Shown here one piece after another: positions 10,446 to 31,072 of a stretch of 36,250 nucleotides of DNA. The position numbers were made by a program, and so were the translations under genes. Location of the stretch: assembly GCA_030524715.1 (NCBI GenBank), contig JAUNGB010000056.1:1-36250 (forward strand). Direction: 5' to 3'. Source of the DNA: Eubacteriales bacterium (lineage in GTDB: Bacteria; Bacillota; Clostridia; Lachnospirales; Lachnospiraceae). The first letter of the stretch is position 1, and each line of letters opens with the position of its first letter. The notes beneath the pieces were generated by a model. It was given only the letters and a program-made list of their open reading frames with translations. It was not told the DNA's origin and ran no database searches.

Positions 10446-10504
10446 GTTATACATTATCAGCCCATAGCCCTGCAGCCAGTGCAGGCCTGTAAATGAACAA
10501 TAAC
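10446..10504 (+). repeat. Dispersed palindromic repeat, copy A
   Basis: Member of a repeat family found about six times in this window. The core CCCATAGCCCTGCA, loop GCCAG, TGCAGG and the right end TGAACAATAAC match the other copies; the left end is degraded to GTTAT. It lies in the 209-bp gap between the two acsB coding regions, just before the stop codon of the upstream copy. Confidence 0.75.
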
Positions 10505-10511
10505 GTCTTTA

Positions 10512-12641
10512 TTACATCATCGGGTCAAGCATCAGCGCCGGATGTCCTTTTTCGGTCAGGAAGCTAACCAGTGTCTCCGGATCTTCCGCTACAGTTTCGT
10601 CGCCGATCATATCGGTAAAGTTGTCGATTCCGTACATTTCCTTAGCGGTCTTGTTTAATCTGTCCGCAACGAATTCCTTCAGTTCCTTGGGCATCCATAC
10701 GATACGCTCAATACCGCCCTCTGCCTTCATGAACTTCTTGGAACCGATGAAATGCTTGCCGTGTCCCATGAAACCAGGCGTCTGAACACCGCCGCCGGTC
10801 ATGGAAGCCATCTCGGAGAAGGTCATTCCAAGAGGAGTCATGCCTGCATATTCACGGTTAGCAATAACAACACCGTTGGAGAACGGCTCGATACCGCAGA
10901 TACACTCGAAGCATCCGCAGGAGGTCATAGGATCCTGCATGATGGAGTACAGGGTAACGTGCTCCAGAGCGCCCTGGGAATATTTCTGTACGGCTTCATC
11001 AACGTCTTCATAGGAACCGAGATTCTCATCGATTACTCTCTCTTTTGTGATGATCTGGCACGGGCCGGCCGGGTCAAGCTCGTTGGTAGCCTTTGCATCC
11101 AGCCATGAAACAGCTCCGCAGAGTCCCAGTCTCTCAGGCGTAACCACACATACGTGAGACGGGGAGAATGCCTGGCAGAGGATACAGCTATAGTATACGT
11201 CTACAGATTCGTCTGTCAGGTTGTCAAGACGCTCGTCACGTTTGTTGAAGATCGGGATTGCCACTTCATGACGCATTCTTGTACATTCTGCAGGATCTGT
11301 GTAAATAACAACTTCACATTTATCAACAACAGCGTCAAATTCATTCTTAACCTGAGTATAAAGAACTTCACCGATATGTTTGATACGGAATCCGGCATTG
11401 AATGCATCAATGCTGATACGGATACGCTGCATATCACGCTGGCCGGTGTGGTATACACCTTCGATACAGTTGATATAGTTGTGGAACTTACGCTCGATAA
11501 CGGATTCAAAGTCAGGCTGCATGTTCTTGCCTGCAACTTTTACCAGATATACGATGCTGTTCTTGCTTCCCAGAGCCATTTCGTCAGCTTCCGGTCCGAT
11601 CACGGTGATCTTGTGGTCTTCTACTTCAGAAGGCTCACAGGTCTGTACAAGCTCTGCACAGTCTACACGGGAACCGTCAAACTCAACCTGCATGTCTTTA
11701 CGGCGGATGATCTCACCTTCGAATGCAGATGCAAATGCTACAGGGATGTCTACGTTTGTAATCTTGATCTTAATGTCACGAGCCTCAAGGGAAGTAGCAT
11801 TGAACTCTTCTACGTTCGGCTGTTTGATCAGGCTCTTCGGTACGCTTGGTGTGTAGTCCATATCATTGGTAACTACCGGGAAGCCATAGTAAATAGCTCC
11901 TGCACCGCAGGCAACGGTCTTCTCATCCAGAGGTGCAAATGCATTGACAAATGCACGGAATCTGTTGAAGGTGTACTCCTGAAGAGCAGCCTTGTCGCCA
12001 GGTGTGATATTACCGAAGATCATAGCTGTTCTGCATGCTGCAGATACGGCATGACAAACGGAGGAGATATTCTCACCGATCGGGAATACACGTACGTTAA
12101 AGCCGGTCTTGTAATTTGCTTCTTTTAACTGCTCAATGATTCCGCCAACCAGACAAACGAAGTTACCCTGTGCCTGGTAGCTCTTAACCAGTGCGCATGC
12201 TTCTTCTACGGTCGGAGCTGCATTGATGATAACTGCAATACCCGGGATATCGCCTGTTACAAGCGGTACACCAAGCTCACGGATCTGAGCATCTGTCATA
12301 TGTCCAAGGTAAGGAGCCTCATACGGGGTCTTGCCGCCAACATATTTCATAGCCTCGATCAGCTCTGCTGCCAAAGCAGTCGCTACACCGGATTTGAAAC
12401 CGGAATCCAGACGTCTCTCACGGGTCATCTGAGCTTTAATATATGTAAGGGCTTCTTTCGCTTCTTTTAAAGTTGTAATCTTATTTCCTGTCTCTGCATA
12501 GAAGCAGGGAAGGGAATATGCGGTTTCAGGAAAACCTACTGCCATGTCTTCGCCGTATTCAGCGATTGCGGCATCAACAGCTTCCACTGCTTCTGCATAC
12601 ATGGTATCATTTCCGTTAAATACGATATCAAATAAAAGCAC
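10512..12641 (-). CDS. acsB: CO-methylating acetyl-CoA synthase, upstream copy
   Basis: Second complete acetyl-CoA synthase subunit, directly after cooC and acsA. From the GTG at 12641 it has 709 aa. The A-cluster ligands are Cys486, Cys489, Cys498 and Cys508, with the Cys575-Gly-Cys577 nickel site and Phe492. An ATG lies two codons earlier (12647), but AGGAGG is only 1 nt before it and 7 nt before the GTG, so the GTG start is preferred. The gene lies 24 bp after the CooC ATPase gene. Between this copy and the next, residues around the A-cluster (about 470-655) differ at only about 3 positions, although many codons differ silently. This argues for an old duplication under strong selection, not an assembly duplicate. 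Confidence 0.95.
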   Translation of the reverse strand: MLLFDIVFNGNDTMYAEAVEAVDAAIAEYGEDMAVGFPETAYSLPCFYAETGNKITTLKEAKEALTYIKAQMTRERRLDSGFKSGVATALAAELIEAMKYVGGKTPYEAPYLGHMTDAQIRELGVPLVTGDIPGIAVIINAAPTVEEACALVKSYQAQGNFVCLVGGIIEQLKEANYKTGFNVRVFPIGENISSVCHAVSAACRTAMIFGNITPGDKAALQEYTFNRFRAFVNAFAPLDEKTVACGAGAIYYGFPVVTNDMDYTPSVPKSLIKQPNVEEFNATSLEARDIKIKITNVDIPVAFASAFEGEIIRRKDMQVEFDGSRVDCAELVQTCEPSEVEDHKITVIGPEADEMALGSKNSIVYLVKVAGKNMQPDFESVIERKFHNYINCIEGVYHTGQRDMQRIRISIDAFNAGFRIKHIGEVLYTQVKNEFDAVVDKCEVVIYTDPAECTRMRHEVAIPIFNKRDERLDNLTDESVDVYYSCILCQAFSPSHVCVVTPERLGLCGAVSWLDAKATNELDPAGPCQIITKERVIDENLGSYEDVDEAVQKYSQGALEHVTLYSIMQDPMTSCGCFECICGIEPFSNGVVIANREYAGMTPLGMTFSEMASMTGGGVQTPGFMGHGKHFIGSKKFMKAEGGIERIVWMPKELKEFVADRLNKTAKEMYGIDNFTDMIGDETVAEDPETLVSFLTEKGHPALMLDPMM

Positions 12642-12665
12642 TGTCATACCTCCTAATAACAGATC

Positions 12666-13433
12666 TTATTGTTGTTGATCTATTTTCTCTTTGATTTTGA
12701 TAATTTCATCAGTAACTGTCTTGCTGAAATCATATGGTGATTTCCCCTGACGGTCAGCGTCAATAACCTCTGTATTATAATGGATCATGCCAAGCAGATC
12801 CTCCGGAGGGATCCTGTCTGTGATAAACGCCTCATCCTCTTCGTTGCGAACCTTATTGGCCACAACCTTAACCTGGGAAACTCCCAGATCCTTTGCAAGA
12901 CGCTTCACATTTCTGTATGTCTGTACGCTTCTTGCCCCGGGCTCGATCACGACGATAAAGGCGTCCATGCTTTCTGTGGTTCCTCTTCCCAGATGCTCCA
13001 GCCCGGCTTCCATATCAAGGATCACTACGTCGTCCCTGTGAAGCACCAGATTGTTGATGATCCGTTTCAGCATCACATGTTCCGGGCACACACAGCCGCC
13101 TCCGCCCGTTTCCACCGTTCCGAGAACCAGAAGTTTCACGCCGTTACAGACCTTTCCGTAGGTATCCGGAATGTCGTCTACCTTTGGATTCAGCTTATAA
13201 AACTGGTTCTGGCTGTTGGCTCCGGTCCGTTCCTCCACCAGCTTACGCATTCTTGAGATCGGCACTATGGAATCCAGCGTCTCCTCGTCAAAGCCAAGGG
13301 CAAGTCCCAGGTTTGCGTCCGGATCTACGTCCGCCGCAAGAACATGCCTTCCTTCATCTGCGTATAATCTGGCGAGGGTAGCCGCAAATGTGGTCTTTCC
13401 TACTCCGCCTTTCCCTGTGACTGCAATTTTCAT
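12666..13433 (-). CDS. cooC: CooC-type nickel-insertion ATPase (between acsA and acsB)
   Basis: MinD/SIMIBI-class ATPase that inserts nickel into CO dehydrogenase or acetyl-CoA synthase. The protein is 255 aa. The deviant Walker A motif GKGGVGKTT starts at residue 7 with the signature lysine. VLAADVDPDANLG follows as in CooC, and the nickel-binding Cys-x-Cys lies at Cys114/Cys116 in GGGGCVCPEH. The switch II aspartate is in VVILDMEAGLEHLGRGT. The ATG at 13433 has AAAGG about 11 nt upstream. It lies 32 bp after acsA and just before acsB, the position often called acsF, so the A-cluster is a plausible target, but the sequence alone does not decide this. Confidence 0.92.
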   Translation of the reverse strand: MKIAVTGKGGVGKTTFAATLARLYADEGRHVLAADVDPDANLGLALGFDEETLDSIVPISRMRKLVEERTGANSQNQFYKLNPKVDDIPDTYGKVCNGVKLLVLGTVETGGGGCVCPEHVMLKRIINNLVLHRDDVVILDMEAGLEHLGRGTTESMDAFIVVIEPGARSVQTYRNVKRLAKDLGVSQVKVVANKVRNEEDEAFITDRIPPEDLLGMIHYNTEVIDADRQGKSPYDFSKTVTDEIIKIKEKIDQQQ

Positions 13434-13465
13434 AAGTTATCGCGCCTTTCTTTCTTAAACCAACA

Positions 13466-15358
13466 TCAGATTCCTAATGCAGCTCTCTTTTCTTCGATTC
13501 TTTCGATCATCATATCGCCTAATTTGTCGATATCATGCTCTACAGTGTAAGCAGCCTCAACCCAGTCTCTGATGCCGCCCTTCAGAAGTCCATCAACCTC
13601 GGAGGAACCATATGCATACGGCTCAACGCCAAGATATGTATCAATACCGGTTGCTACTACATAGTTACCGATGGAAACCGCTTTTTCGGACATCCACTCA
13701 GGAGCACATCCTACCAACGGGATCTGGGAGATATTCCATCCGGAATCCTTTGCGATCCTGGAAGCCAGAACCATCATACGGCTGATATCTACGCAGGAGC
13801 CCATATGTAATACAGGAGGAATGTCAACAAGCTCACAGACACGTTTCAGGCCCGCGCCGCAGAGATCCTTCGCACGTTTATCCATTAAGCCGGCTTTTGC
13901 GGCAGCCTGTGCGGAACATCCGGAAACCACCAGGATGATATCGTTTGCGATCAGCTTCTTCATAAGTTCAATATGAGCTGCGTCAGGACGGACCTTCGGG
14001 TTGTTACATCCAACCATGGCAACTGCTCCGCGGAGAACGCCGGATTTCACGCAGTCAACCAGCGGCATCATAGTGCCTGTCTCATCAACGTGGCTGTTGG
14101 TAACTCCGTCCAGTTTCTTCTCGATCTGTTCTACAGAGAAGCCTACGGTAGCCTTCTGTTTCATCTGAGGAATGTATACCAGGTCTTTATTTCTGTTCTT
14201 GAAGTTTTCGATCGCTGTCTTAACGATCAGTTTTGCGTTTTCTCCGGCCGTCTTGGAATTGAATCTGATAAAATCAGAATCCGGCATCTGAGCGATCGGG
14301 GAAGTGGTGATAAATTTCGTATGGAAACACTTGGAAAGCGGTCCTAACGCAGGGAAGATACACTGCACGTCTACAACGATCGCTTCACAGGCGCCTGTGA
14401 GGACTACGTTTTCCTGCTGTAAGAAGTTACCTGCCATCGGAATACCACGGCGCATTGCAACTTCATTGGAGGTACAGCAGACGCCGGATACGGTAATTCC
14501 CTGTGCTCCCATGGATTTTGCGTAGTCGATCATTTCCTTGCTGTCCGCATATTCGCAGATCATCTCGGAAAGCGACGGATCATGTCCATGGACAACGATG
14601 TTTACGTTCTCTTCCACCATTACCCCAAGGTTGGCCTCTGTCTCAATTTCCTTCGGAGTTCCGAAAAGAACGTCGGAGAATTCAGTACCCATCATGGAGC
14701 CGCCCCATCCATCGGACAGACCGGAACGAAGGGCCTGACGGATCAGAGCCTCCGGCTTGGAAGAGTTACCCATATGGGTCATATGCATGGAGCAGGAAAC
14801 CTCACGGTCAATGGCACGGGGACGAATTTCCTCTCTGTCCCAGATTTCCTGGGTATGCTCCGGAGCACGTTTGGTGAATACCTGTGTTCCGAAAGGTTTG
14901 CCATATTCCATCAGACCTGCTTCCGCAACCTCGTGAGCAACATCATAAATATCCTTTCCTTCTGTCTCTACGCCGAATTCAGCAGCCAGACGGAGAAGCT
15001 TTTCAGGATCCTTTACCTTGTAATTGCCGTCTGCTGCAGATTCATACAGTGTATGGGCAATTTCACGGCCATGGTCAGAATGTGTTGCGGAACCGCCGGA
15101 GGTAAAGCGCAGGAAGTTTCTTCCTACGATACCATGAACATCGCATCCGCAGATTCCTCTCGGAGCCTTCGGGGTAATACGGCACGGTCCCATGGAACAG
15201 ATACGGCAGCACATACCAGCTTCACCGAATTTACAGTGTGGAGTCTGATTCTTAACACGCATCTGCCAGGAATCAGCACCGACTTTGGCGCCTGTCTCTA
15301 ACAGTCGATTAGTGGCAGCTTCAAATTCTTCCACTGTAGTTAATTTGAATTCACTCAT
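13466..15358 (-). CDS. acsA: Anaerobic Ni-Fe carbon monoxide dehydrogenase catalytic subunit
   Basis: Reduces CO2 to CO and passes it through a tunnel to acetyl-CoA synthase. The protein is 630 aa (family 620-675). D-cluster cysteines are Cys42 and Cys50. B-cluster cysteines are Cys51, Cys54, Cys59 and Cys70 or Cys72. C-cluster ligands are visible as His257 or His259 (VVHGHDP), Cys295 (GVCCTSNE), Cys333, Cys451, Cys481 and Cys522, and the catalytic Lys559 (WMSEKA) is present. All key residues are intact. The ATG at 15358 has AAAGGAGG upstream. It is the only CODH in the window while there are two acsB genes. A candidate internal promoter lies about 80 bp upstream. Confidence 0.97.
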   Translation of the reverse strand: MSEFKLTTVEEFEAATNRLLETGAKVGADSWQMRVKNQTPHCKFGEAGMCCRICSMGPCRITPKAPRGICGCDVHGIVGRNFLRFTSGGSATHSDHGREIAHTLYESAADGNYKVKDPEKLLRLAAEFGVETEGKDIYDVAHEVAEAGLMEYGKPFGTQVFTKRAPEHTQEIWDREEIRPRAIDREVSCSMHMTHMGNSSKPEALIRQALRSGLSDGWGGSMMGTEFSDVLFGTPKEIETEANLGVMVEENVNIVVHGHDPSLSEMICEYADSKEMIDYAKSMGAQGITVSGVCCTSNEVAMRRGIPMAGNFLQQENVVLTGACEAIVVDVQCIFPALGPLSKCFHTKFITTSPIAQMPDSDFIRFNSKTAGENAKLIVKTAIENFKNRNKDLVYIPQMKQKATVGFSVEQIEKKLDGVTNSHVDETGTMMPLVDCVKSGVLRGAVAMVGCNNPKVRPDAAHIELMKKLIANDIILVVSGCSAQAAAKAGLMDKRAKDLCGAGLKRVCELVDIPPVLHMGSCVDISRMMVLASRIAKDSGWNISQIPLVGCAPEWMSEKAVSIGNYVVATGIDTYLGVEPYAYGSSEVDGLLKGGIRDWVEAAYTVEHDIDKLGDMMIERIEEKRAALGI

Positions 15359-15432
15359 TATAGACCTCCTTTAAATTGCGCACGAGCCGAACCCGAAAGG
15401 TTATCCGGACCGTACTTTTGTCTTATAAATAA

Positions 15433-15460
15433 ATTATATTAATAAGCCCACGTTTGGGAA
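15433..15460 (-). promoter_or_regulatory. Possible internal promoter for acsA
   Basis: On the minus strand TTCCCA (15455-15460), a 16-bp spacer and TATAAT (15433-15438) lie about 75 bp before acsA. The -10 is perfect, the -35 only 4 of 6. The 213-bp spacer around it also holds two stem-loops (15459-15480 and 15520-15537), consistent with a separately controlled acsA segment. Confidence 0.4.
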
Positions 15461-15519
15461 CCCATCCCCTCCCATGGGTTATTTTCGTAAAAAATAAAAG
15501 CATTCTCTTTTTTAGGACA

Positions 15520-15537
15520 AAGAGGGCAAGCCCTCTT
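15520..15537 (-). terminator. Hairpin after the second cooC
   Basis: A perfect 8-bp inverted repeat AAGAGGGC / GCCCTCTT with a 2-nt centre lies 35 nt after the upstream CooC gene. On minus it ends in CTTTG, with only three T, so it would be a weak terminator or an attenuator between the nickel module and acsA. Confidence 0.35.
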
Positions 15538-15571
15538 CCACTTCCTGAATTTCTCACTCATGAGAGACTTG

Positions 15572-16342
15572 CTATAAATCTAATTTGTCAACGATGACAC
15601 GCAGCGCAGCCTTGACAGGATTGTCATCCGGCAGGGAGGCTGTAGGACGGCCTTCACAATCGTATTCGTAAACCTTGTCATCCTGTGGAACAACCCCCAG
15701 GAGCTGAAGTCCCTGGTTTTCGATTTCTTCCCGGATGCCTTCGTTTAATTCGCCGTTGGGAGCGCGGTTGATGATCAGGCCTACCTTGGACGGATGCATA
15801 TCGCATTCTTCAATAAGTCTGGCGATCCTGCCCACGGCCTGAACGCCTCTTCTGGAGCAGTCGCTTACCAGAATGGCTGTCTGCATTGTGGGGAGCACGC
15901 CTCTGCTGATATGCTCCATACCCGCCTCGTTATCCACTACAAAGTACGGATAACTGTTCTGGTATTTCGCCAGTTGTGTCTGAAGAAGCCCATTGACAAA
16001 GCAATAACACCCCTTCCCCTGTGTCCTGCCCATAACAAGCAGGTCAAAATCATCATCCTCCACCAGGGCGTCCTCAAAACGAAGTTCCGCATAATCCGCC
16101 TTGGACATTCCCGTGGGAATGGGATTCTCCTTTGACATTTCCGCGCGTGCGATCTCTTCACGCACATCGCCGAGAGTCGTATCTACCTTAACTCCTAAAA
16201 CTTCATTCAGGTTGGAGTTTGCGTCGGCATCTACCGCAAGAACGGGACCCTTGCCCTTCTCACAAAGGTACTGGATCAGCATTCCGCATAATGTTGTCTT
16301 TCCTACGCCGCCTTTTCCTGCGACAGCAATTACATGGGCCAT
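15572..16342 (-). CDS. cooC: CooC-type nickel-insertion ATPase (upstream of acsA)
   Basis: A second, clearly different CooC/MinD-family ATPase, 256 aa. It has AGKGGVGKTT near residue 8, VLAVDADANSNLNEVLG, the Cys-x-Cys nickel motif at Cys112/Cys114 (GKGCYCFVN) and VVDNEAGMEHISRG. It is the likely nickel-insertion ATPase for the CODH C-cluster, given its place before acsA and after cooT; this assignment is inference. The two ATPases share motifs but differ in most other residues, so they look like old paralogues with separate clients. The ATG at 16342 has GAGGTG at fair spacing. Confidence 0.9.
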   Translation of the reverse strand: MAHVIAVAGKGGVGKTTLCGMLIQYLCEKGKGPVLAVDADANSNLNEVLGVKVDTTLGDVREEIARAEMSKENPIPTGMSKADYAELRFEDALVEDDDFDLLVMGRTQGKGCYCFVNGLLQTQLAKYQNSYPYFVVDNEAGMEHISRGVLPTMQTAILVSDCSRRGVQAVGRIARLIEECDMHPSKVGLIINRAPNGELNEGIREEIENQGLQLLGVVPQDDKVYEYDCEGRPTASLPDDNPVKAALRVIVDKLDL

Positions 16343-16414
16343 TACTTCGGCACCTCAACTTTCTTCCTAAAATCACGTTGTTTCAATGATTTGTTTCGGT
16401 TAATTTCAAAGCTT

Positions 16415-16451
16415 ACTGACGATATCAGTAAAATCCACTGACGGTATCTGT
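16415..16451. repeat. 15-bp direct repeat at the cooT 3' end
   Basis: ACTGACGATATCAGT (16415-16429) is repeated as ACTGACGGTATCTGT (16437-16451) with two mismatches and a 7-bp gap. The first copy is itself an inverted repeat (ACTGA / TCAGT). It lies between cooT and cooC and might be an operator or an RNA structure; no function is shown. Confidence 0.4.
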
Positions 16452-16633
16452 TATTCACAGCGCAGCTTCACTATGCTGTTGGCCAGATCCACCATAAGGA
16501 TGCGGCCTTCCACTACCCTTTCATCGCCCATGATATCGCGGAGAATCAACTTGTCCCCGTCCACATCGATGCGGCTTACATTTCTGAAAATAACAGAATC
16601 ATCGCTTTCTTTATATACTGTTGCCAAACACAT
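16451..16633 (-). CDS. cooT: CooT family nickel-binding protein
   Basis: A 60-aa protein starting MCLATVY. From family knowledge, CooT proteins are small dimeric nickel-binding proteins whose Cys2 is the metal ligand and which help mature CO dehydrogenase; that Cys2 is present. The predicted fold is all-beta (short strands SVIFRNVSRIDVDGDKLILRDI and IVKLRC). It lies 12 bp after the His-rich gene and 108 bp before the first CooC ATPase, so it forms part of a nickel-delivery group. The ATG at 16633 follows GGAGG at 6-7 nt. Confidence 0.88.
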   Translation of the reverse strand: MCLATVYKESDDSVIFRNVSRIDVDGDKLILRDIMGDERVVEGRILMVDLANSIVKLRCE

Positions 16634-16645
16634 AGCTTCCGCCTC

Positions 16646-17053
16646 CTATTTCATCTCTTCTTTTACCAGCGTCAGGGCAAGTCCGAGACGCATGTTGCCC
16701 TTCTGAAAATCCGCAACGCCTTCTTTGATCGTCTTCGCCGCTGCCTCCATTCCCATTTTCTTAAGGTTCTCCGCCATCTGGTCAAGCTCTGCCGCGTGAT
16801 GCTCGTTATGCTGCAGCATATAAGTCAGAAGCGCAACCGTCTCATTCTTACAGTCGCCGCTGCTGCAGGAGCCGCAGTGCTCATGGCTTCCGCAACCGTC
16901 CGCGTGGGTATGTCCGTGGCCTTCTCCATCCGCATGGCTGTGGGAATGGCTGTGGGTAACGCCGTCCGCATGGGTATGCTCGTGAGTATGTTCTTCTGTA
17001 TGTTCATGTCCGTGATGGACAAGATTGCCGTTTTCATCTTTAATTAAATGCAT
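16646..17053 (-). CDS. His-rich nickel-binding protein leading the acs operon
   Basis: A 135-aa protein with two parts. Residues 1-70 hold about 18 His in HxH runs (HEHTEEHTHEHTH, HSHSHSH), then four Cys in GCGSHEHCGSCSSGDC. Residues 70-135 are a helical domain (LLTYMLQHNEHHAAELDQMAENLKKMG ... LALTLVKEEMK) with three more His. The composition suggests nickel storage or delivery, like the His tails of CooJ or HypB, but the His-rich part is at the N-terminus and no named family is certain. The frame extends to 17086; the ATG at 17053 is chosen because AAAGGGGA stands before it. It is the first gene after the best promoter of the cluster. Confidence 0.8.
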   Translation of the reverse strand: MHLIKDENGNLVHHGHEHTEEHTHEHTHADGVTHSHSHSHADGEGHGHTHADGCGSHEHCGSCSSGDCKNETVALLTYMLQHNEHHAAELDQMAENLKKMGMEAAAKTIKEGVADFQKGNMRLGLALTLVKEEMK

Positions 17054-17124
17054 GAAAGATTCCCCTTTCTTCAGGATTGCCTGCATTTAGGCATACTTAT
17101 GACAAGAATTTATCAATTGGTTTC

Positions 17125-17153
17125 ATTATACATCTTTTTTTCTTGATTAGCAA
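17125..17153 (-). promoter_or_regulatory. Promoter of the acs operon
   Basis: On the minus strand TTGCTA (17148-17153), a 17-bp spacer and a perfect TATAAT (17125-17130). The expected transcript starts near 17118, giving a leader of about 65 nt before the His-rich gene. It is the best sigma-A-type site upstream of the Wood-Ljungdahl genes. No obvious operator overlaps it. Confidence 0.7.
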
Positions 17154-17307: not shown

Positions 17308-17373
17308 GTTACTGTTCAGTGTTACTGGCCCATAGCATTTCTGACAATATAAGACTTGGGAGTGAACAGTAAC
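17308..17373 (+). repeat. Dispersed palindromic repeat, copy D (variant centre)
   Basis: Perfect 11-bp terminal inverted repeats GTTACTGTTCA / TGAACAGTAAC bound 66 bp. The inner CCCATAG and CTTGGGA words match the other copies, but the centre is replaced by an AT-rich piece lacking the GCCAG loop. It lies between the divergent acs and aldo/keto reductase promoters. Confidence 0.8.
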
Positions 17374-18521: not shown

Positions 18522-18643
18522 ATAAGTATCCCCCGCTTCAAGTGCGCAGAGCACTAAGCGGGGGATGCTTATGTCAGCGGGAGTTCAAAGCTTCCACTGA
18601 CAAACCGCGCAGCGGAATGCGAATGTCCGCCGTACGGTTGTAC
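18522..18643 (+). other. Run of nested hairpins after the reductase gene
   Basis: Three structures follow each other closely. H1 (18522-18572) has arms ATAAGTATCCCCCGCTT / AAGCGGGGGATGCTTAT with one mismatch and an inner AGTGC/GCACT stem. H2 (18573-18601) has GTCAG / CTGAC arms with an inner GGGAG/CTTCC stem. H3 (18605-18643) has alternative CCGC/GCGG or GCGGA/TCCGC pairings followed by GTAC-GGTT-GTAC. The run leads into a perfect terminator hairpin. It could be a structured RNA or the terminal remnant of a mobile element; no open frame is believable here. Confidence 0.5.
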
Positions 18644-23116: not shown

Positions 23117-23195
23117 TTATTGTCATCAGCTTCTTTATCATGTTACCAGCCCATAGTCCTGCAGCCAGTGCATGGCTATGGGTGTGAACAATAAC
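23117..23195 (+). repeat. Dispersed palindromic repeat, copy B
   Basis: The core CCCATAGTCCTGCA, loop GCCAG, TGCATGGCTATGGG and the right end TGAACAATAAC match the family. TTATTGT at 23117 pairs with ACAATAA at 23188. The inner CCATAG/CTATGG arms fold into a long hairpin. It lies in the predicted 5' leader of the DUF512-der transcript. Confidence 0.75.
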
Positions 23196-23264: not shown

Positions 23265-23279
23265 TGTATTAGAGTCATG

Positions 23280-23312
23280 GTTACTGTTCACACATACGGC
23301 GCAAACAGTAAC
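23280..23312 (+). repeat. Dispersed palindromic repeat, copy E (short form)
   Basis: The 9-bp inverted ends GTTACTGTT / AACAGTAAC of the repeat family enclose a 15-nt loop without the usual core. It lies just after the predicted start of the PRPP synthetase transcript, so it should fold in the mRNA leader. Confidence 0.65.
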
Positions 23313-24545: not shown

Positions 24546-24564
24546 ATGAAGATTCAGTATACAG

Positions 24565-24610
24565 AAAGCCCACGCTTCCGGTTCTCTTTCCGGCCGCATG
24601 GGCTTTTTCG
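24565..24610 (+). terminator. Terminator between prs and pgeF
   Basis: An imperfect stem AAAGCCCACGC / GCATGGGCTTT with an inner CCGG/CCGG pairing is followed by TTTTT on +. On the minus strand it ends in CTTTC, so it may also act, more weakly, for the convergent pgeF gene that ends at 24634. Confidence 0.85.
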
Positions 24611-24633
24611 GCTATGGCTTACTTCTGCTTTAT

Positions 24634-25491
24634 TTATATTTCTGCCTTTATTCCAAGGAACGCGCCGAGATTTCCTCTTTTTCCCCTGGACGCCCTGTGG
24701 GAAAACAGAAATTCCGGATTGCAGCAGGTACAGAGATTCGGCATGGAAATATGGTCTTCCGGAATCCCGGCTTCCATAAGAATCAGCTTATTTGCCTGCC
24801 AGAGATCCAACTGAAATTTGCCGTTGTCCTTAGCATAGTAGATATCGCTCCACTGCTCTTCCCTGAAAGCCTTCTGGAACTCCAGGATCACATCCTCGCT
24901 GACTTCATAACAATCCTGACAGATGGAAGGGCCGATCGCCGCATAAAGCTCCCCGGGATCTGTATTATATTCACATTTCATCTTTTCCACGGTAACAGAA
25001 CCGATTCTTCCTGCAGTTCCTCTCCAGCCGGAATGAGACAGTCCCACCGCCCTGTGCCCGGGATCCACAAAATAAAGGGGCACGCAGTCCGCATAAAAAG
25101 TAGCGAGCACCACACCCGGGACATTGGTGATCATTCCGTCCACATCTGTATAGGAACGGGGCCTGGTGATTCCATTTCCCCTGTCGCTTTCTGTGATCAC
25201 CCGCACATTGGTTGTATGCGTCTGGTCAGAGGTTACGATATCCTCCAAAGAAAAGCCTATGGCAGCCCCCAGTCTCCGGTAATTCTCAAATACATCCGCC
25301 TCACAGTCCCCTCTTGTGAAGCTTAAATTCATGGAAGCATAGATTCCTTTGCTTACCCCGCCCAGCCGGGTGCTGAACCCATGGACAAATTCCGGAAACT
25401 GCTCAAACGCAGGATAAGAAAGGTAGGTTACTCCGTCTTTTTCCTTCACGGTCATGCCTTCGGCACATGGATCATGCCATTTTATTTTCAT
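24634..25491 (-). CDS. pgeF: Peptidoglycan editing factor (YfiH/laccase-domain family)
   Basis: Member of the YfiH (DUF152) family, known in E. coli to remove wrongly incorporated L-Ser from peptidoglycan precursors; some homologues have purine nucleoside activities. The protein is 285 aa. The metal-site motifs are present: DQTHTTNV, ATFYADCVPLYF, LSHSGWRGT (with the conserved His), IGPSICQDCYEV and NLCTCCNPEFLFSHRASRGKRGNLGAF. The ATG at 25491 has AAGGAGG 5 nt upstream. It lies 60 bp after yraN, in the same direction, with a 14-bp tandem repeat in the gap. Confidence 0.93.
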   Translation of the reverse strand: MKIKWHDPCAEGMTVKEKDGVTYLSYPAFEQFPEFVHGFSTRLGGVSKGIYASMNLSFTRGDCEADVFENYRRLGAAIGFSLEDIVTSDQTHTTNVRVITESDRGNGITRPRSYTDVDGMITNVPGVVLATFYADCVPLYFVDPGHRAVGLSHSGWRGTAGRIGSVTVEKMKCEYNTDPGELYAAIGPSICQDCYEVSEDVILEFQKAFREEQWSDIYYAKDNGKFQLDLWQANKLILMEAGIPEDHISMPNLCTCCNPEFLFSHRASRGKRGNLGAFLGIKAEI

Positions 25492-25528
25492 TTTATCCTC
25501 CTTATATGGTGTAGCACATATGGTTCAG

Positions 25529-25570
25529 TACTAAAATCTATATACTAAAATCTATGTACAAAAATCAAAT
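25529..25570. repeat. Tandem 14-bp repeat across the yraN stop
   Basis: TACTAAAATCTATA, TACTAAAATCTATG and the degenerate TACAAAAATCAAAT follow each other exactly in phase at 14 bp. The third unit is the last part of the yraN coding region, so the repeat probably grew by slippage out of the gene end. Confidence 0.7.
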
Positions 25571-25905
25571 GCATTGGGAATCCAGCGGATTTCTTCGCCG
25601 TCAAAGCCCACAACGTCAAACCGGCAGGCAATCTCCGTGGTTCCATAATGAGTTACCAGATAGTATTGTGCCACCCGGCTGATCGCCCGGCGCTTTTTAC
25701 GGTCCACCGCGGCAAGGGAAGCCCCCGATCTGCCGTCGCTGCGGTACTTGACCTCTACAAACACCAGATATTTCCCGTCCGTGGCCACCAGATCCACCTC
25801 GCCCATTTTGCAGCGGTAGTTTTTCTCTTTAATGGCCAGGCCCTGCCTTTGTAAAAATCCGGCAGCCTTTGCTTCGTAGCCGCCGCCGATTTTCCGTTTA
25901 TTCAT
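25552..25905 (-). CDS. yraN: YraN family (UPF0102) nuclease-like protein
   Basis: A 117-aa protein with the restriction-endonuclease-like core of the YraN family: GGGYEAKAAGFLQ with the conserved Glu, NYRCKMGEVDLVATDGKYLVFVEVKYR with the D-ExK pair, and a C-terminal RFDVVGFDG. Its role is not settled; the family is linked to DNA processing. The ATG at 25905 follows AGGA. It is 107 bp downstream of rnhB, the common Firmicute order. Confidence 0.93.
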   Translation of the reverse strand: MNKRKIGGGYEAKAAGFLQRQGLAIKEKNYRCKMGEVDLVATDGKYLVFVEVKYRSDGRSGASLAAVDRKKRRAISRVAQYYLVTHYGTTEIACRFDVVGFDGEEIRWIPNAFDFCT

Positions 25906-25952
25906 AGTTTGTCCTGTTAGTTTTCGTGTCGGTATCTTTTGTAAAATCAGCC

Positions 25953-25970
25953 GCGCAAGCGAACTTGCGC
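25953..25970 (-). terminator. Hairpin between rnhB and yraN
   Basis: A 7-bp stem GCGCAAG / CTTGCGC closes on TTCG when read on minus. The TTTT stretch comes 6 nt later (GGCTGATTTTAC), so it is a weak terminator or a processing hairpin. Confidence 0.4.
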
Positions 25971-26012
25971 ATCTGCCCGGTACATTGTTGCTCCAGCCGC
26001 TGTCCGGGACTT

Positions 26013-26768
26013 TTACAGCAGCTTTCCGATAAAGCTTTCCCTGTGAATGGGACTGGGGCCGTATTTTCGAAGGGCAGCGATATGCGCAGCAGAGCCATAC
26101 CCCTTATTGGATGCAAATCCATACTGAGGCATAACCGCATCATATTCCACCATCATCCTATCCCTTGTCACCTTTGCCACAATGCTCGCGGCGGCAATGG
26201 AAACACTCTTTTCATCGCCCTTGATGATCGGCACCTGGGGAATGGTTATCTCCGGGATCGTCACAGCGTCATTGAGAAGAAGCTGAGGCACGACAGAAAG
26301 CCTGCAGACTGCCTCCCGCATAGCTTCATAGGTAGCCTGCAGGATGTTAATCTCATCGATCCTTGCAGGTCCCACCATGCCGATTCCCACGGAAACAGCC
26401 TTTTCCATGATGACATCGTATAATTCCTCTCTTTTCTTTGCACTGAGTTTCTTGGAATCATTCAGGTACAGAATATCACAGTCCCCGGGCAGAATCACAG
26501 CGCAGGCAACCACAGGGCCTGCCAGCGGTCCTCTTCCTACCTCGTCAATGCCGCAGAGGAACCCCAGATGCTCATACTTATGTTCGTATACTTTCATAGC
26601 TTCGATCCGCTGTTTCTCCGCTTCCAAGGCCGCTTCTTTTCTGCGGTACTGTTCCAGAAGCTTTTTTACTCCGCTCCGGGAGTCTTCTGCATATTTTTCG
26701 TACAAAGCAGCATATCCGTCCATCTGCGCCCCGGCAAATTCTGCTTTAATCTCTTCAATCTTTTTCAT
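26013..26768 (-). CDS. rnhB: Ribonuclease HII
   Basis: Cuts RNA in RNA-DNA hybrids and at single ribonucleotides in DNA. The protein is 251 aa with the N-terminal helical extension seen in Bacillus RNase HII. Catalytic Asp-Glu are in GIDEVGRGPLAGPVVA (near residue 74). Other motifs are LNDSKKLS, and SIAAASIVAKVTRD with the third acidic residues further on. The ATG at 26768 follows GGAG and overlaps the rbgA stop by 4 bp, so the two are translationally coupled. Confidence 0.97.
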   Translation of the reverse strand: MKKIEEIKAEFAGAQMDGYAALYEKYAEDSRSGVKKLLEQYRRKEAALEAEKQRIEAMKVYEHKYEHLGFLCGIDEVGRGPLAGPVVACAVILPGDCDILYLNDSKKLSAKKREELYDVIMEKAVSVGIGMVGPARIDEINILQATYEAMREAVCRLSVVPQLLLNDAVTIPEITIPQVPIIKGDEKSVSIAAASIVAKVTRDRMMVEYDAVMPQYGFASNKGYGSAAHIAALRKYGPSPIHRESFIGKLL

Positions 26769-27613
26769 TTGTCACTCCGCCATTCCAAAGTAATACGTCC
26801 GATCTTTCCGGCGCGGAAATCATCAAAAAGAAGCAGCGCTGCTTTCGCATAATCCAGCTCTTCTCCCTTTTTCAGACAGCCTCTTGCCCTGGCGATCGCT
26901 TCCAGAATCTCCACAGAGGTTCCTTCCTCTGAAATATGATAGCGCCCGGCAAGTACCCCCGGATACTGCGCCTGCAGATATCCGATCAGTTTCAGCGCAA
27001 GCTCTTCCATATTCAGGATATTGTCCTTGATCGATCCCACAAAGGCAAGGCGGATTCCCACCTCCTGATCCTCAAACTTCGGCCAGAGGATCCCCGGAGT
27101 ATCAAGAAGCTCCACGCCTTTATTCAGGCGAATCCACTGTTTTCCCTTTGTGACTCCCGGCTTGTTTCCCGTCTTTGCGCAGGCTTTTCCGGCAAAGGTA
27201 TTGATAAATGTGGATTTTCCCACATTGGGGATTCCCACTACCATTGCGCGGATAGGGCGGTTTTTGATTCCGCGGCGTCTGTCGCGCTCTGTTTTTTCCC
27301 TGCAGGCCTCCTGAATGGTATTCTGGATCGCCTTCATACCGGAGCCGTTTCTGGAATCCACCTTCACCACATAAAAGCCTTTTTCCTGAAAGTATGCCTT
27401 CCAGGCTTCATTCTGCCGCTCATCCGCCAGATCCGCTTTATTTAAAAGAATCAGCCGTGACTTGTTCTTTCCCAGTTCATCAATATCCGGATTGCGGCTG
27501 GACAGAGGCACCCGCGCATCTACAAGCTCAATGATCAGGTCAATGAGCTTAATATCCTCCTGCATCTGTCTTTTTGCCTTGGTCATATGACCTGGATACC
27601 ATTGTACATTCAT
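26765..27613 (-). CDS. rbgA: Ribosome biogenesis GTPase YlqF/RbgA
   Basis: Circularly permuted GTPase needed for late 50S assembly. The protein is 282 aa. The family N-terminus MNVQWYPGHMTKAKRQM is complete. The G motifs come in permuted order: NKADLAD (G4) near 58, GIPNVGKSTFIN (G1) near 126, then DTPGILWPKF (G3) near 173. The ATG at 27613 follows AAAGGA. It lies between lepB and rnhB as in many Firmicutes. Confidence 0.97.
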   Translation of the reverse strand: MNVQWYPGHMTKAKRQMQEDIKLIDLIIELVDARVPLSSRNPDIDELGKNKSRLILLNKADLADERQNEAWKAYFQEKGFYVVKVDSRNGSGMKAIQNTIQEACREKTERDRRRGIKNRPIRAMVVGIPNVGKSTFINTFAGKACAKTGNKPGVTKGKQWIRLNKGVELLDTPGILWPKFEDQEVGIRLAFVGSIKDNILNMEELALKLIGYLQAQYPGVLAGRYHISEEGTSVEILEAIARARGCLKKGEELDYAKAALLLFDDFRAGKIGRITLEWRSDK

Positions 27614-27740
27614 AAGTTAAATCCTTTCATTTACCATCGTCGGAAACCTGCTGCCTTCAGGCTGCGGTTAATTAACATTGTCTCTTACCCTTCCAAAAAT
27701 CCTATTTTTTTCACAGGGGAGCAGGTAAACCACAGTTTTC

Positions 27741-28301
27741 CTACGATATAGCGTTTTTTACCTTGCCGATATCTCCGTAGCGGCTGTCCTCGCTGTTATT
27801 CCGGTTGTCTCCCAGCACAAAGTATTCCCCTGACTGTAAAGTCACCGGGCTGGACGCTATTCCCGCATTACTGATAGAGGGAAAATCTTTCCCTTCTTTA
27901 TATGTCTCGCCGTTAATGAGAATACGTCCGTCTGAAATCTGGATGGTTTCCCCCGGCAGCCCGATCACACGCCGGATATGAAGGGCGGCTTCATCGCTTG
28001 CGTTTGTCTTAAACACGATGATATCGCCCCGCTGGGGAGAGCCCACCTTATATGCAACGCGGTTCATAAAAAATTTATCGCCCACTGAAAGAGTCGGTTC
28101 CATAGAGCTTTCCTGCATTGTGACTGACTGAAACATTCCGATCGCCACAACCGCCGCGAACACAAGGGTCACTGCGATCTCAAATATCCAGAGCAATACA
28201 TTCCGCACTTTTTTATTTTCCAGCTTTTCCTTTGCTTTTCCCTTCGCCTTCTCCTTTACGGCAGTAAGCTTTTCGCTTTTCTTCCATTTTTTTATGTTCA
28301 T
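27741..28301 (-). CDS. lepB: Signal peptidase I, frameshifted near the 3' end
   Basis: Type I signal peptidase that cleaves exported preproteins at the outer membrane face. A basic N-terminus and one membrane helix (near 33-56) are followed by the catalytic Ser66 in SSMEPT, box C RGDIIVFK, box D HIRRVIGLPGE and box E GDNRNNSEDSR. The reading frame stops at 186 aa. With one more A in the six-A run (27754-27759 on the complement), the frame would continue with KRYIVGKLWF and end at 27685, giving 205 aa with a normal family C-terminus. The position of the catalytic lysine (the K of YIKR in E. coli LepB) is Arg110 here. The ATG at 28301 follows GGAG at 10 nt. Confidence 0.88.
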   Translation of the reverse strand: MNIKKWKKSEKLTAVKEKAKGKAKEKLENKKVRNVLLWIFEIAVTLVFAAVVAIGMFQSVTMQESSMEPTLSVGDKFFMNRVAYKVGSPQRGDIIVFKTNASDEAALHIRRVIGLPGETIQISDGRILINGETYKEGKDFPSISNAGIASSPVTLQSGEYFVLGDNRNNSEDSRYGDIGKVKNAIS

Positions 28302-28341
28302 TTTCCATGTACTCCGTTATTTTTCCATGTACTCCATTGTA
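28302..28341. repeat. Two tandem 20-bp units before lepB
   Basis: TTTTCCATGTACTCCGTTAT is followed at once by TTTTCCATGTACTCCATTGT. On minus each unit carries a GGAGTACATGGAAAA block, so the lepB ribosome binding region is duplicated. It probably arose by slippage. Confidence 0.65.
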
Positions 28342-28353
28342 AAGCCATGATTA

Positions 28354-28387
28354 CAAAAGAGGGACAATAGCTTAAGTTATTGTCCCT
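28354..28387 (-). terminator. Terminator after rplS
   Basis: A 10-bp stem AGGGACAATA / TATTGTCCCT with an 8-nt loop, followed on minus by CTCTTTTG. It lies 26 nt beyond the rplS stop and before lepB, so rplS is probably made mostly as a single-gene transcript with some read-through. Confidence 0.7.
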
Positions 28388-28412
28388 GCTCTTTAAATCT
28401 CTGAAATTTTCA

Positions 28413-28760
28413 TTATCTCATGCGCTCTTTAACCTTAGCGGCTTTACCTACACGGTCTCTTAAGTAGTTCAGTTTTGCACGGCGAACTTTACCATGACGG
28501 ATAACTTCTACTTTAACAACGTGCGGGGAGTGCAGCGGCCATGTCTTCTCAACGCCTACTCCGTTGGAGCTCTTTCTTACAGTGAAGGTTTCTCTGTTGC
28601 TTCCGCCCTGTCTTTTCAGAACTGTTCCTTCAAAGACCTGGATTCTCTCGCGGTTGCCTTCCTTGATCATAGCGTGTACTCTTACTGTGTCGCCTACATT
28701 AAACTGAGGCGCTTCCGCTTTCAACTGAGCGGCTTCGATGTTTTTGATAATTTCATGCAT
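28413..28760 (-). CDS. rplS: 50S ribosomal protein L19
   Basis: Ribosomal protein at the 30S-50S interface. The protein is 115 aa, the full family length. The [28 protein letters not shown] segment, [18 protein letters not shown] and the C-terminal [20 protein letters not shown] are all typical. The ATG at 28760 has AGGAG upstream. A good promoter lies 80 bp before it and a terminator follows. Confidence 0.98.
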
Positions 28761-28839
28761 GTTCTTTCTCTCCTATTCTTCATGGATGTTCTTAATACAT
28801 GTCTGTAACAGCGGACCATCTTTTTTACAACATGTAAGA

Positions 28840-28867
28840 TTATACAATAGAACTTCTCCCATTGCAA
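28840..28867 (-). promoter_or_regulatory. Promoter of rplS
   Basis: On minus TTGCAA (28862-28867), a 16-bp spacer and a perfect TATAAT (28840-28845). The expected leader is about 72 nt. No known L19 leader motif was recognised in it. Confidence 0.65.
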
Positions 28868-28905
28868 GCAGTTTTTTCAGATTCGTCCTCTTTTGCTTTC
28901 ATACT

Positions 28906-28958
28906 GTTACTGTCCCATAGCCTTGCAGCCAGTGCAAGGCTTGGGAATGAACAGTAAC
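28906..28958 (+). repeat. Dispersed palindromic repeat, copy C (best-formed)
   Basis: A 53-bp element with perfect ends GTTACTGT / ACAGTAAC and an inner stem CCCA-T-AGCCTTGCA / TGCAAGGCT-TGGG around the loop GCCAG. Nearly the whole element folds into one hairpin. It lies between the end of the EamA gene and the rplS promoter. Confidence 0.85.
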
Positions 28959-28988
28959 TTCATACTCCTATATCCGCCGCTTAGTGTT

Positions 28989-29885
28989 CTACGCATTTGA
29001 AGCGGAGGAACGCTTGCCTGTGTTCAAAATCGTGATCGCTCCCAAAACCAAAAGAATACCGGCAAGGGAGGCTAAGGTCAGCGTCTCATGGAACACAACC
29101 ACCCCGGCGACCGTCGCAACCACAGGCTCTACAGACGCCATAATAGACGCAGAACTCGCCTTTGTGGATGCAAGCCCAACCGTATATAATAAATATGGGA
29201 GAACCGCCGTCACAAACGCGGTCAGAAGAATCAACAGCAAAAGAAATCCGCTGTCATCAGCCCTGTGGATCTTCGCCGCAATATCCGGCGGGTTACAGAT
29301 TGCCAGGGCTCCAGCGCCTCCGCACAGGAATGCGTAAGTCGTCACAGTAAGCGGCTCGTATTTTCTGAGGACATAAGTTCCAAGAATGCTGTACAGCCCA
29401 TAACCAAAGCCCGAAAGCAGCCCAAAGCCCGCCGCTGCCGCTGAAATCTGTGTTCCTCCGGTAAATCCGGTCACAAGGATACAGCCTGAAAACGCCATAG
29501 CAAGAGCCGCTGCTTTTCGCACTGTAAGCTTTTCGCGGAATAATACCAGCGACATCAGCATGACCATGATCGGCGCGGTATATAACAGAATCGCCGCCAC
29601 AGATAAGGACGCCATTGAAATAGTCGTAAAATAAAATACGGTAAACATCAGAATACTGCCGATACCAAGCCCGAGAAACCATCCCAGGTCCCTGAGCTCA
29701 ATCTTCAGTTTCTTTCTGTCAGCAAAAAAAATCACTGCCAAAAAGATCAGAGCTCCCACTATAATACGCAGCGACGCAATCTGCAATGAAGTAAACCCAT
29801 AGGTTCCAAGCTTACGCACAAAAATTCCCATGCTTCCCCAAAGTATTCCGGCCAAAATGATACAGACCGAAGCCTTTTTTTCCAT
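28989..29885 (-). CDS. EamA family (DMT superfamily) transporter
   Basis: Integral membrane permease, 298 aa, with about ten hydrophobic segments arranged as two EamA repeats (residues about 8-140 and 150-288). The first repeat begins with the typical ILWGSMGIFVRKLG; the second repeat shows the usual GxxxALxxxLYT-like VLPYLLYTVGLASTKASSASIMASVEPVVA. The substrate is unknown; relatives move amino acids or metabolites. The open frame extends to 29975, but the ATG at 29885 fits the family start and follows AGAGG. It has no partner gene. Confidence 0.88.
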   Translation of the reverse strand: MEKKASVCIILAGILWGSMGIFVRKLGTYGFTSLQIASLRIIVGALIFLAVIFFADRKKLKIELRDLGWFLGLGIGSILMFTVFYFTTISMASLSVAAILLYTAPIMVMLMSLVLFREKLTVRKAAALAMAFSGCILVTGFTGGTQISAAAAGFGLLSGFGYGLYSILGTYVLRKYEPLTVTTYAFLCGGAGALAICNPPDIAAKIHRADDSGFLLLLILLTAFVTAVLPYLLYTVGLASTKASSASIMASVEPVVATVAGVVVFHETLTLASLAGILLVLGAITILNTGKRSSASNA

Positions 29886-29980
29886 AATCCTCTCTCCCCG
29901 TTCTCTCCTGTATTCTCTTTTGCCGCCAATAACGGCAGGCTTGTTTATCATAATATGATTTTGGTCTTTTATCAAGGTAA

Positions 29981-30044
29981 AGTTCTACCCTGATATCGTA
30001 TCATATAAGTTCTACCCTGATATCGTATCTATAAGTTTTATCCC
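29981..30044. repeat. Tandem ~26-bp repeat at the ZIP gene 3' end
   Basis: AGTTCTACCCTGATATCGTA begins a 27-bp unit (29981-30007), repeats as a 26-bp unit (30008-30033), and a partial third copy AGTTTTATCCC (30034-30044) overlaps the ZIP stop codon. Each unit contains the palindrome-like GATATC. Slippage from the gene end is likely. Confidence 0.75.
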
Positions 30045-30814
30045 AATGCCACATCCAGAATCATCATCAGTACAAATCCCACCGCAAAAGCAATGGTTCC
30101 TATATTGCTGTGCTCTCCTTCACTGGCTTCCGGAATCAATTCCTCCACAACTACATAGATCATAGCTCCGGCGGCAAAGGCAAGAAGGTATGGAAGCACC
30201 GGAGCCACATAGGAAGCAAGGAGCAGTGTAAAGACTCCGGCAATCGGCTCCACGATCCCCGACAGGGCGCCGTAAAGAAAGGCCCTTCCTCTGCTCACTC
30301 CCGCCCCGCGCAGAGGCATGGAAATAATAGCCCCTTCCGGAAAATTCTGTATGGCAATACCCACCGCCAGGGTAAACGCCCCTGCCATCGTCACCGTATC
30401 GCTGCCTGTTACAGCGCCTGCAAAAACAGCCCCGGCAGAAAGCCCCTCCGGAATATTATGCAGGGTTACTGCAAGGACAAGCATGGTTGTTTTTTTTAAA
30501 GCGACCTTCGGTCCCTCAGATTCCTCGCTTCCTATATGAAGGTGCGGCACAGCATGATCCATCAGCAGCAAAAATCCGATGCCAAGGCAGAATCCCACTG
30601 CCGCCGGAACAAAGGCAAGCCGTCCCATCCCCTCACTCATATCCATTGCAGGAATCAGCAGCGACCACACAGAAGCGGCCACCATCACCCCTGACGCAAA
30701 ACCCAGAAAGGACTTCTGCACCAGAGGCTTTAATTCATTTTTCATAAAAAACACACATGCCGCTCCCAGAGCCGTTCCCAGAAACGGAATTAATAATCCG
30801 AAAAATATGTTCAT
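30038..30814 (-). CDS. ZIP family divalent metal transporter
   Basis: Membrane importer of Zn2+ or other divalent metals, 258 aa with about eight hydrophobic segments. The two metal-site motifs of the family are present: HNIPEGLSAGAVFAG (helix 4) and QNFPEGAIISMPL (helix 5). A short polar stretch HLHIGSEESEGPK lies in the loop before helix 4. The metal cannot be told from sequence; given the nickel-rich acs system upstream, nickel is only a speculation. GAGGGGG lies 9 nt before the ATG at 30814 and 3 nt before another at 30820, so the exact start is open. Confidence 0.9.
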   Translation of the reverse strand: MNIFFGLLIPFLGTALGAACVFFMKNELKPLVQKSFLGFASGVMVAASVWSLLIPAMDMSEGMGRLAFVPAAVGFCLGIGFLLLMDHAVPHLHIGSEESEGPKVALKKTTMLVLAVTLHNIPEGLSAGAVFAGAVTGSDTVTMAGAFTLAVGIAIQNFPEGAIISMPLRGAGVSRGRAFLYGALSGIVEPIAGVFTLLLASYVAPVLPYLLAFAAGAMIYVVVEELIPEASEGEHSNIGTIAFAVGFVLMMILDVALG

Positions 30815-30830
30815 ATTCATCCCCCTCTTC

Positions 30831-30918
30831 CACCAGACTTTTTGACATATCAGGCGTTTTCTCGTCATACCAGACTTTTCTGCCATATCAGACATTTTGT
30901 CATATCAGGCTTTTCTAT
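30831..30918. repeat. Five degenerate 15-20 bp direct repeats upstream of the ZIP gene
   Basis: Units begin at 30831, 30846, 30866, 30884 and 30901, each close to CATATCAGGC-TTTT (for example CATATCAGACATTTTGT and CATACCAGACTTTTCTGC). On minus each reads AAAA then a GCCTGATATG-like word. They fill the leader or promoter region of the ZIP gene and could be regulator sites or slippage products. Confidence 0.6.
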
Positions 30919-31008
30919 CCTATATTACCACAATCAACAAAAATTTAACACTGTTTATTCCAAAATCCCGGCCCGGCGCTGATATTATTAAACTATGCAG
31001 CATACCTG

Positions 31009-31072
31009 GCTACTGTTCCCCCTGTTGCAAACAAAAAAACAGCCAGTGCAAGGCTTGGGAATGAATAATAAC
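31009..31072 (+). repeat. Dispersed palindromic repeat, copy F
   Basis: The left end GCTACTGTTCCC, loop GCCAG, TGCAAGGCTTGGGAATGA and the right end ATAATAAC match copy C. An A-rich insert (near 31031-31038) disrupts the left arm. It ends 5 bp before the -35 of the thiT promoter. Confidence 0.75.

Follow-up and report, generated by a model that had tools for sequence, protein, structure and literature searches.

What are the short palindromic repeats scattered between the genes of this stretch of DNA, and how did they get there? The window (the whole stretch analysed, 36,250 nucleotides) is contig C194 (JAUNGB010000056.1) of a 5.28-Mb draft genome of a Lachnospiraceae bacterium (210 contigs, contamination 5.02%). 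An earlier note, made from the letters alone, had described about six dispersed repeats of 33-79 bp and had offered three readings of them: a miniature inverted-repeat transposable element (MITE), an element of the repetitive extragenic palindromic (REP) type, or a shared regulatory RNA or DNA element. The repeats derive by shortening from a ~144-bp element with three hairpins, which is kept intact in a congener, G027. They are likely to be MITE copies that were moved by a transposase of the ISBst12 group and then shortened by deletion.

Anatomy of the element and its copies

The full-length element is represented by two 144-bp copies in G027. In these copies the left hairpin (H1) is 33 bp, GTTACTGTTCAC...AAACAGTAAC, the middle hairpin (H2) is GAATTCGGCAC...GTGCCGAATTC, and the right hairpin (H3), CTTGCAGCCGGTGCAAG, closes with GTGAACAGTAAC. 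The termini, GTTACTGTTCAC and GTGAACAGTAAC, are inverted repeats, as in a MITE. A profile built from the two copies recovers, after removal of weaker overlapping matches, all six stretches described earlier, each of which was found in the window sequence and each on the + strand.

The six copies are preserved to different degrees. The best one, on sequence, flanks and fold, is a 53-bp right-hairpin (H3-only) form at 28906..28958 (+). The copy at 17308..17373 (+; profile 86-144) has exact termini, GTTACTGTTCA...TGAACAGTAAC, and a decayed core. The one at 31009..31072 (+) has the left terminus GCTACTGTTC and an intact right half (profile 112-143 at 31040-31071). At 10438..10504 (+; profile positions 77-144) spacer, right hairpin (core GCAGCCAGTGCAGGCC) and right terminus are present and the left terminus is unrecognisable; the 10446 start given for this copy, GTTATACATT, is internal spacer. 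A decayed copy at 23117..23195 (+) retains the right hairpin and the terminus GAACAATAAC (profile 90-144 at 23140-23195), its left end (TTATTGTC) being uncertain. The sixth copy, 23280..23312 (+; profile 1-35), is a 33-bp left-hairpin-only form, GTTACTGTTCA...AAACAGTAAC, that fits the left-hairpin pattern with 0 mismatches. Five copies have a right hairpin; the 23280 copy lacks the GCCAG core because it is another part of the element. The ends said to be shared are so on the right, where TAAC forms the terminal bases in 6/6 copies, and on the left an outer end can be recognised by eye in 4/6 only (17308, 23280, 28906 and 31009). When the copies are folded as single-stranded DNA, 28906 gives a strong signal (z -7.18); 17308 (z -2.22), 23117 (z -2.23) and 23280 (z -2.47) give a moderate one, and 10438-10505 (z -0.50) and 31009 (z 0.13) none.

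The genome does not hold these copies alone. A 21-base core, GCAGCCAGTGCAAGGCTTGGG, has 72 matches in it at ≤3 mismatches (39 and 33 by contig strand as given) and 0 with a reversed-pattern control, and there are 79 exact matches to the end GTTACTGTTCA, against 1 for its reversed control. In the 0.78 Mb of stretches fetched around copies there are 153 non-overlapping profile matches; by classes that are set by profile cut-offs, 84 contain H3 and 46 are H1 only. Near-full copies are few in this genome (L115, L088, L156) and short copies many. The element thus has many copies, and their lengths, from 24 to 305 bp, leave no room for a gene. The 305-bp end pair, found in G027, consists of a parent into which a second element is nested. 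At L062 1501-1805 (G027 contig 47) a family copy encloses a small palindromic element of another kind, with ends ACAACGAATAATAAAT / ATTTATTTTTCATTGT.

Target-site duplications and an element-free site

The 28906 copy is flanked by a perfect 8-bp duplication, TTCATACT, the left copy at 28898..28905 being 8/8 identical to the right copy at 28959..28966. The 31009 copy has a probable decayed duplication (6/8), CATACCTG at 31001..31008 and CATGCTTG at 31073..31080. No duplication is left at 17308 (flanks 2/8) or 23280 (3/8). The flank search behind the values for 28906, 17308 and 23280 chose, for each copy, whichever of several possible ends fitted best, and its counts serve no test. A 144-bp parent in G027 has a perfect duplication, CTTCTGTT.

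Larger samples give the same length. Among 56 33-bp hairpins of the window's genome the flanks agree at ≥7/8 positions in 20 and perfectly in 7, against a shuffled mean of 0.44 and maximum of 3 (1000 shuffles); duplication lengths of k=6, 7, 9 and 10 gave 1, 2, 2 and 0. An earlier run that included six G027 loci gave 20/59, and both sets take in left hairpins within longer copies. Among the palindromes found by scanning a single genome for each GTDB species, 121 of 26-56 bp were tested, with flanks at ≥7/8 in 48 and at 8/8 in 31 (shuffled mean 0.47, maximum 4, 1000 shuffles). At lengths 4-7, 9 and 10 the counts are near those of the shuffles, the exceptions being k=9 and k=7 with 2 each. These palindromes come from at least 119 stretches, several of which share a genome, and comprise 107 distinct sequences whose ends were fixed by the search and whose interiors differ; an earlier flank run took 80 of the stretches and the later run all 119.

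A site without the element, of the kind that the earlier note had proposed to look for in sister strains, is present in G027. The ortholog of the 28906 site measures 86 bp between matching gene stretches, compared to 141 bp in the window. This is one site in one genome, with a spacer too diverged for a base-exact join.

Short intergenic palindromes with an orientation bias would also be expected of REP or REPIN elements dispersed by a REP-associated tyrosine (Y1) transposase (RAYT). The 8-bp duplications do not fit such elements, as no REP/RAYT system is known to make target-site duplications; no search was made for a RAYT gene. The family also differs from REP/REPIN in that its H3 loop and H2 core are conserved and its stems are not (see below). 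A REP-type origin is therefore highly improbable. The MITE alternative agrees with the inverted termini, the 8-bp duplications, the many copies, the ortholog without the element and the type of transposase described next.

The transposase

On contig C175 of the same genome there is a 1893-bp element with ends GTAACAGTTCAGATA and an 8/8 duplication, CTTCACTT. Its gene encodes a protein of 515 aa with the domains DUF6444 and DDE_Tnp_IS66 (PF03050, 66 bits), which scores 136.8 bits against NCBIfam IS66 (cut-off 180). The 12 terminal bases of this element are found exactly at both ends of the M. agrestimuris MITEs L292 and L409, and one L368 MITE matches its ends at 12 and 11 bases. PF03050 matches occur in 9/18 of the genomes searched, or 8/17 if G357 and G455, whose matches fall at the same places and which appear to be a single genome, are counted once.

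Eight relatives were fetched from the 143 matching records of plasmid and phage collections, and their ends were located without specifying a GTAACT-type sequence. Six of them have GTAACT-type ends and 8/8 duplications; these include ISGst1 (GTAACTATTCAG) and ISGka4, both members of the ISBst12 group. An alignment-based search supplied nine loci on IMG/VR viral contigs, with GTWAC ends in four and GTAAGG in one, all five having 8/8 duplications; viral contigs searched with the own-genome protein and with that of MT837605.1 gave no relatives. On the gut scaffold MT837605.1 a related gene is followed by the right end CTGAACAGTAAC = GTTACTGTTCAG, which ends 75 bp past the stop codon and is the end of the window family with the twelfth base changed; the left end is outside the record. 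ISDge4, a one-ORF (open reading frame) element of the ISBst12 group, has the ends GTGACTACTCAGCA/GTAACTGCTCAGCA and an 8-bp repeat, according to a 2026 paper that claims the first report of active movement for this group (PMC12898284).

In all, 12 ISBst12-type elements that have duplications (the own-genome insertion sequence, the six from plasmid and phage collections and the five from IMG/VR) have ends similar to the MITE end motif, GTWACWGTTCAS, and so does the MT837605.1 right end. GTAACT-type ends and an 8-bp duplication are common to the MITEs and the ISBst12 group (ISGst1, ISGka4 and ISDge4), the ISBst12 elements having one DDE gene. Unlike the MITEs, the latter are autonomous, measure 1.45-1.9 kb among the elements here, and do not have the MITE interior in common. 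With ends and duplication length in agreement, the MITE family is probably moved by ISBst12-type transposases.

Several observations, to which the state of the short forms in G218 must be added (below), weigh against reading the repeats as deleted MITEs of the ISBst12 group. A clear duplication is missing in 73/121 of the GTDB-scan palindromes and in four of the six window copies. The other 17 of the 18 PF03050 places are without such ends, L452 having classical GTAAGCG ends. The ends of the own-genome insertion sequence, GTAACAGTTCAG, are the same as the MITE end GTTACTGTTCAC at 9/12 positions and differ at 3/12; its interior is shared with 52 long elements only as 9-15-base matches with chance-level E-values. 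Neither a pair scan of 2.1 Mb nor a wider-end scan turned up an autonomous element bounded by GTTACTGTTCAC on either side, and of the end pairs in the own-genome stretches, in six G027 loci, in the 2.1 Mb and with the wider motif, none is longer than 305 bp. G218, which belongs to another genus, has no PF03050 match despite its young copies. Finally, the transposase searches covered IS66 and IS6, and 8-bp duplications are also made by ISL3, IS256 and IS1595.

The MITEs might then be moved by one of these three families or by an undescribed one, and G218, with young copies and no PF03050 match, would suit such a mover. The resemblance of GTWACWGTTCAS to 12 ISBst12-type elements and one further right end argues for the ISBst12 group instead, and a mover from another family seems unlikely. 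IS6, with similar-looking ends and an 8-bp duplication, was tried as a candidate and rejected: its transposase occurs in 1/12 of the genomes searched, and not in the window's own.

Origin of the short forms

Movement by an ISBst12-group transposase followed by deletion would proceed as follows. The full unit of ~144 bp has its left terminus in the 33-bp H1, H2 in the middle, and its right terminus in H3. A DDE transposase of the ISBst12 group (IS66 family) would act in trans on the GTTACTGTTCAC ends, and an 8-bp staggered cut at insertion would give rise to the 8-bp duplications. The unit carries extra inner copies of the terminal sequence (GTTACTG, ACAGTAAC), so that deletions between direct repeats could strip it down to remnants of 33 bp (H1 only) or 53-70 bp (H3), in which both termini would survive together with the duplication. 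A similar deletion between repeats underlies the nearly precise excision of Tn10, which leaves short remnants with both ends and the duplication; unlike in Tn10, the parent here is a ~140-bp MITE and the remnants are a major class of copies.

Deletion between terminal-sequence repeats within the element predicts both the coexistence of parents with short forms and the presence of T/G variants. Longer parents do coexist with short forms in the four genomes examined closely, the window's own, G027, G218 and M. agrestimuris. In M. agrestimuris there are 144-146-bp parents and 35-bp forms, and position 9 of the latter is T, as in the outer repeat, in three and G, as in the inner repeat, in three. 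In G218, where a search with GTTACTGTTCAC for an autonomous copy brought up parents and remnants instead (among the 100 of 173 places listed), 132-bp, 115-bp and 24-54-bp forms coexist, mostly with 7-8/8 duplications. The short forms look like deletions between repeats within the element. At L239, about 4331-4460 (G218 contig 33), the right end (GTGAACAGTGACGAACGTTTGAACAGTAACGAATGTTTGAACAGTAAC) stands three times in close direct repetition, which might reflect tandem insertion or slippage.

Perfect duplications in G218 flank 5/9 of the 24-26-bp forms and 4/8 of the 132-bp forms. This equal freshness of short and long forms is not specially predicted by deletion, and the short forms might themselves be mobile. 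The 24-56-bp palindromes would then be mobile units with no longer parent, the transposase acting on little more than two abutted 12-bp ends. Such mobility would account for the same short form at several sites with perfect duplications (three 35-bp T-type forms in M. agrestimuris, five 24-26-bp copies in G218). Yet longer parents are present in the same four genomes, the short forms equal one parent end, the T/G hybrids fit deletion, and a 26-bp DNA would give little room for a paired-end complex. Independent mobility of the palindromes is accordingly quite unlikely.

Deletion from a transposed parent would account for a class of short intergenic palindromes in the Lachnospiraceae, a large gut family, and would make them natural experiments on hairpin-driven deletion and on the minimum size of a mobile unit. 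Bacterial MITEs such as RUP are likewise short, intergenic and gene-free, with inverted ends, and are moved in trans. RUP is linked to IS630 and to TA target sites; the family here differs from it by its 8-bp duplications, its three-hairpin plan and its numerous short forms. Open-licence papers searched for the end sequence, for MITEs in connection with Lachnospiraceae or Blautia and for MITEs in connection with IS66 included none that describes this family. The family consists of MITEs, probably with ISBst12/IS66 mobility, in which a plan of three hairpins recurs and short remnants are a large class.

Conserved hairpins

The 52 long elements are candidates with both ends and flanks at ≥6/8, of which the 6/8 ones may include chance pairs. 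Many of them keep the H3 loop form CAGCNAGTG while the stems vary (CCTTG/CAAGG, CAGCG/CGCAG, CTTTG/CAAAG, CCTGA/TCAGG, CTAAT/ATTAG and others). Pairing at H3 positions 1-6 reaches 89% over 15 distinct rows, compared to 53% (maximum 72%) after shuffling, a difference that leans upward as the rows were chosen partly by pairing (score ≥4). An H2 core like CATTTAAAATCGCCTNCGGCGA is also kept, and its differing outer stems pair at 9-11/11 positions in 8/11 rows; overall H2 pairing is 83% vs 59% shuffled (maximum 74%), for rows that were picked by their core and scored at the best-fitting of 3 offsets in observed and shuffled sets alike, 3/11 rows being off-register or on the wrong strand. The conserved cores are seen in part of the long elements, not in every one.

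The H2 and H3 cores are thus constant across genera while the stems change in a paired fashion, which raises the testable question of what recognises them. Selection on a recognised fold and repeated copying of hairpin arms are both candidate causes. Rfam gave no convincing family match on any element (the window, then 11 and 12 loci). It is also conceivable, if rather doubtful, that these mini-transposons are one family-wide lineage in which the conserved H3 loop and H2 core, set in freely varying but paired stems, form a code that some protein recognises in the folded DNA strand or RNA, in conjunction with an 8-bp-duplicating transposase, and that the 24-35-bp palindromes are perhaps mobile; if true, these end-to-end palindromes would be among the smallest transposable units known.

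Orientation and gene context

All window copies lie on the + strand, in the single orientation that the earlier note had described; genome-wide, this becomes a bias of roughly 70:30 in opposition to the local direction of genes and GC skew. H3 copies are opposite to the local majority gene strand in 52/74 decidable cases (two-sided binomial 0.0006) and to the local GC skew in 56/83 (0.002). Between co-directional genes, 36 oppose and 12 follow (0.0007). Relative to skew, 14 are against and 6 with at divergent junctions, and 1 against and 4 with at convergent ones. The H1-only copies, which are nearly symmetric, show no bias (18 against and 23 with the gene strand). The probabilities are optimistic because copies on one contig are not independent. 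The proposed test against replication direction gave the GC-skew result above, with replication and transcription inseparable because only 3/48 co-directional junctions have genes against the skew. The uniform orientation in the window is a sample of this genome-wide bias.

The repeats are also intergenic. With a simple ORF caller, none of the six window copies lies inside an ORF, in accord with the earlier description, and 6/84 H3 and 6/46 H1-only copies do so in sequence that is 86% coding. Such placement, the opposition to gene strand in 52/74 right-hairpin copies, and the conservation of loops and cores across genera with paired stem changes would befit a regulatory element, RNA or DNA, that had been domesticated, dispersed and retained for a function at promoters, leaders and junctions. 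However, the window copies adjoin unrelated genes, several are decayed, the G027 ortholog lacks the 28906 copy, and no Rfam family is found on any element; a regulatory role as the reason for the spread is very unlikely.

Distribution in the Lachnospiraceae

The H3-type pattern occurs in 2/116 genomes, the window's own included, and BLAST of the window site gave one weak match, in G009 (80% over 51 bp). The window's exact core had no match in a first scan of genome contigs, and plasmids gave no DNA match to a window copy. The H1-type pattern is found in 10/64 genomes of the genus (control 0), with 88 in the own genome, 19 in G027 and 1-2 in eight others, counted over both strands so that palindromes count twice. 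A looser palindrome, GTTACTGTN{5,35}ACAGTAAC, occurs in 43/348 genomes of the family vs 25/348 for the reversed control, so that single matches are uninformative; two or more occur in 18 genomes vs 1 for the control. The highest counts are 42 in G218, 29 in the own genome, 14 each in G247 and G321, 13 in G174 and 10 in G238, followed by G357 (7), G329 (5) and ten other genomes with 2-4 each.

The GTDB scan found at least 119 stretches with palindromes. Among the 80 stretches listed, 25 are labelled Lachnospiraceae and many more belong to genera such as Murimonas, Mediterraneibacter and Anaerocolumna (Lachnospiraceae per NCBI) or to Blautia, Butyrivibrio and Hungatella, of the same family. The remainder are unplaced Clostridia, 'uncultured bacterium', one Oscillospiraceae and three coriobacterial or actinobacterial metagenome-assembled genomes.

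Neighbouring features

The 10438 repeat lies between two adjacent paralogous genes for acetyl-CoA synthase beta subunits on the - strand (8176-10320 and 10512-12647; 714 and 711 aa), with the same three Pfam domains. They suggest an acetogen with a duplicated acetyl-CoA synthase gene. The 31009 copy is 36 bp upstream of the aptamer of a thiamine pyrophosphate (TPP) riboswitch, at 31109-31252 (+), which precedes a ThiT/YuaJ thiamine transporter gene. The riboswitch was missed by the default Rfam scan because its score of 42.6 bits is below the cut-off of 54.3. A second inverted-repeat pair, 18529-18566 / 28972-29009 (87% complementary, CCGCTTCAAGTGCGCAGAGCACTAAGCGG), has weak matches to its 28974 side in the congeners G005, G037, G029 and G016. 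A perfect 23-bp direct repeat, AAGTTCTACCCTGATATCGTATC, occupies 29980-30029, with starts 27 bp apart, directly upstream of the gene starting at 29975.

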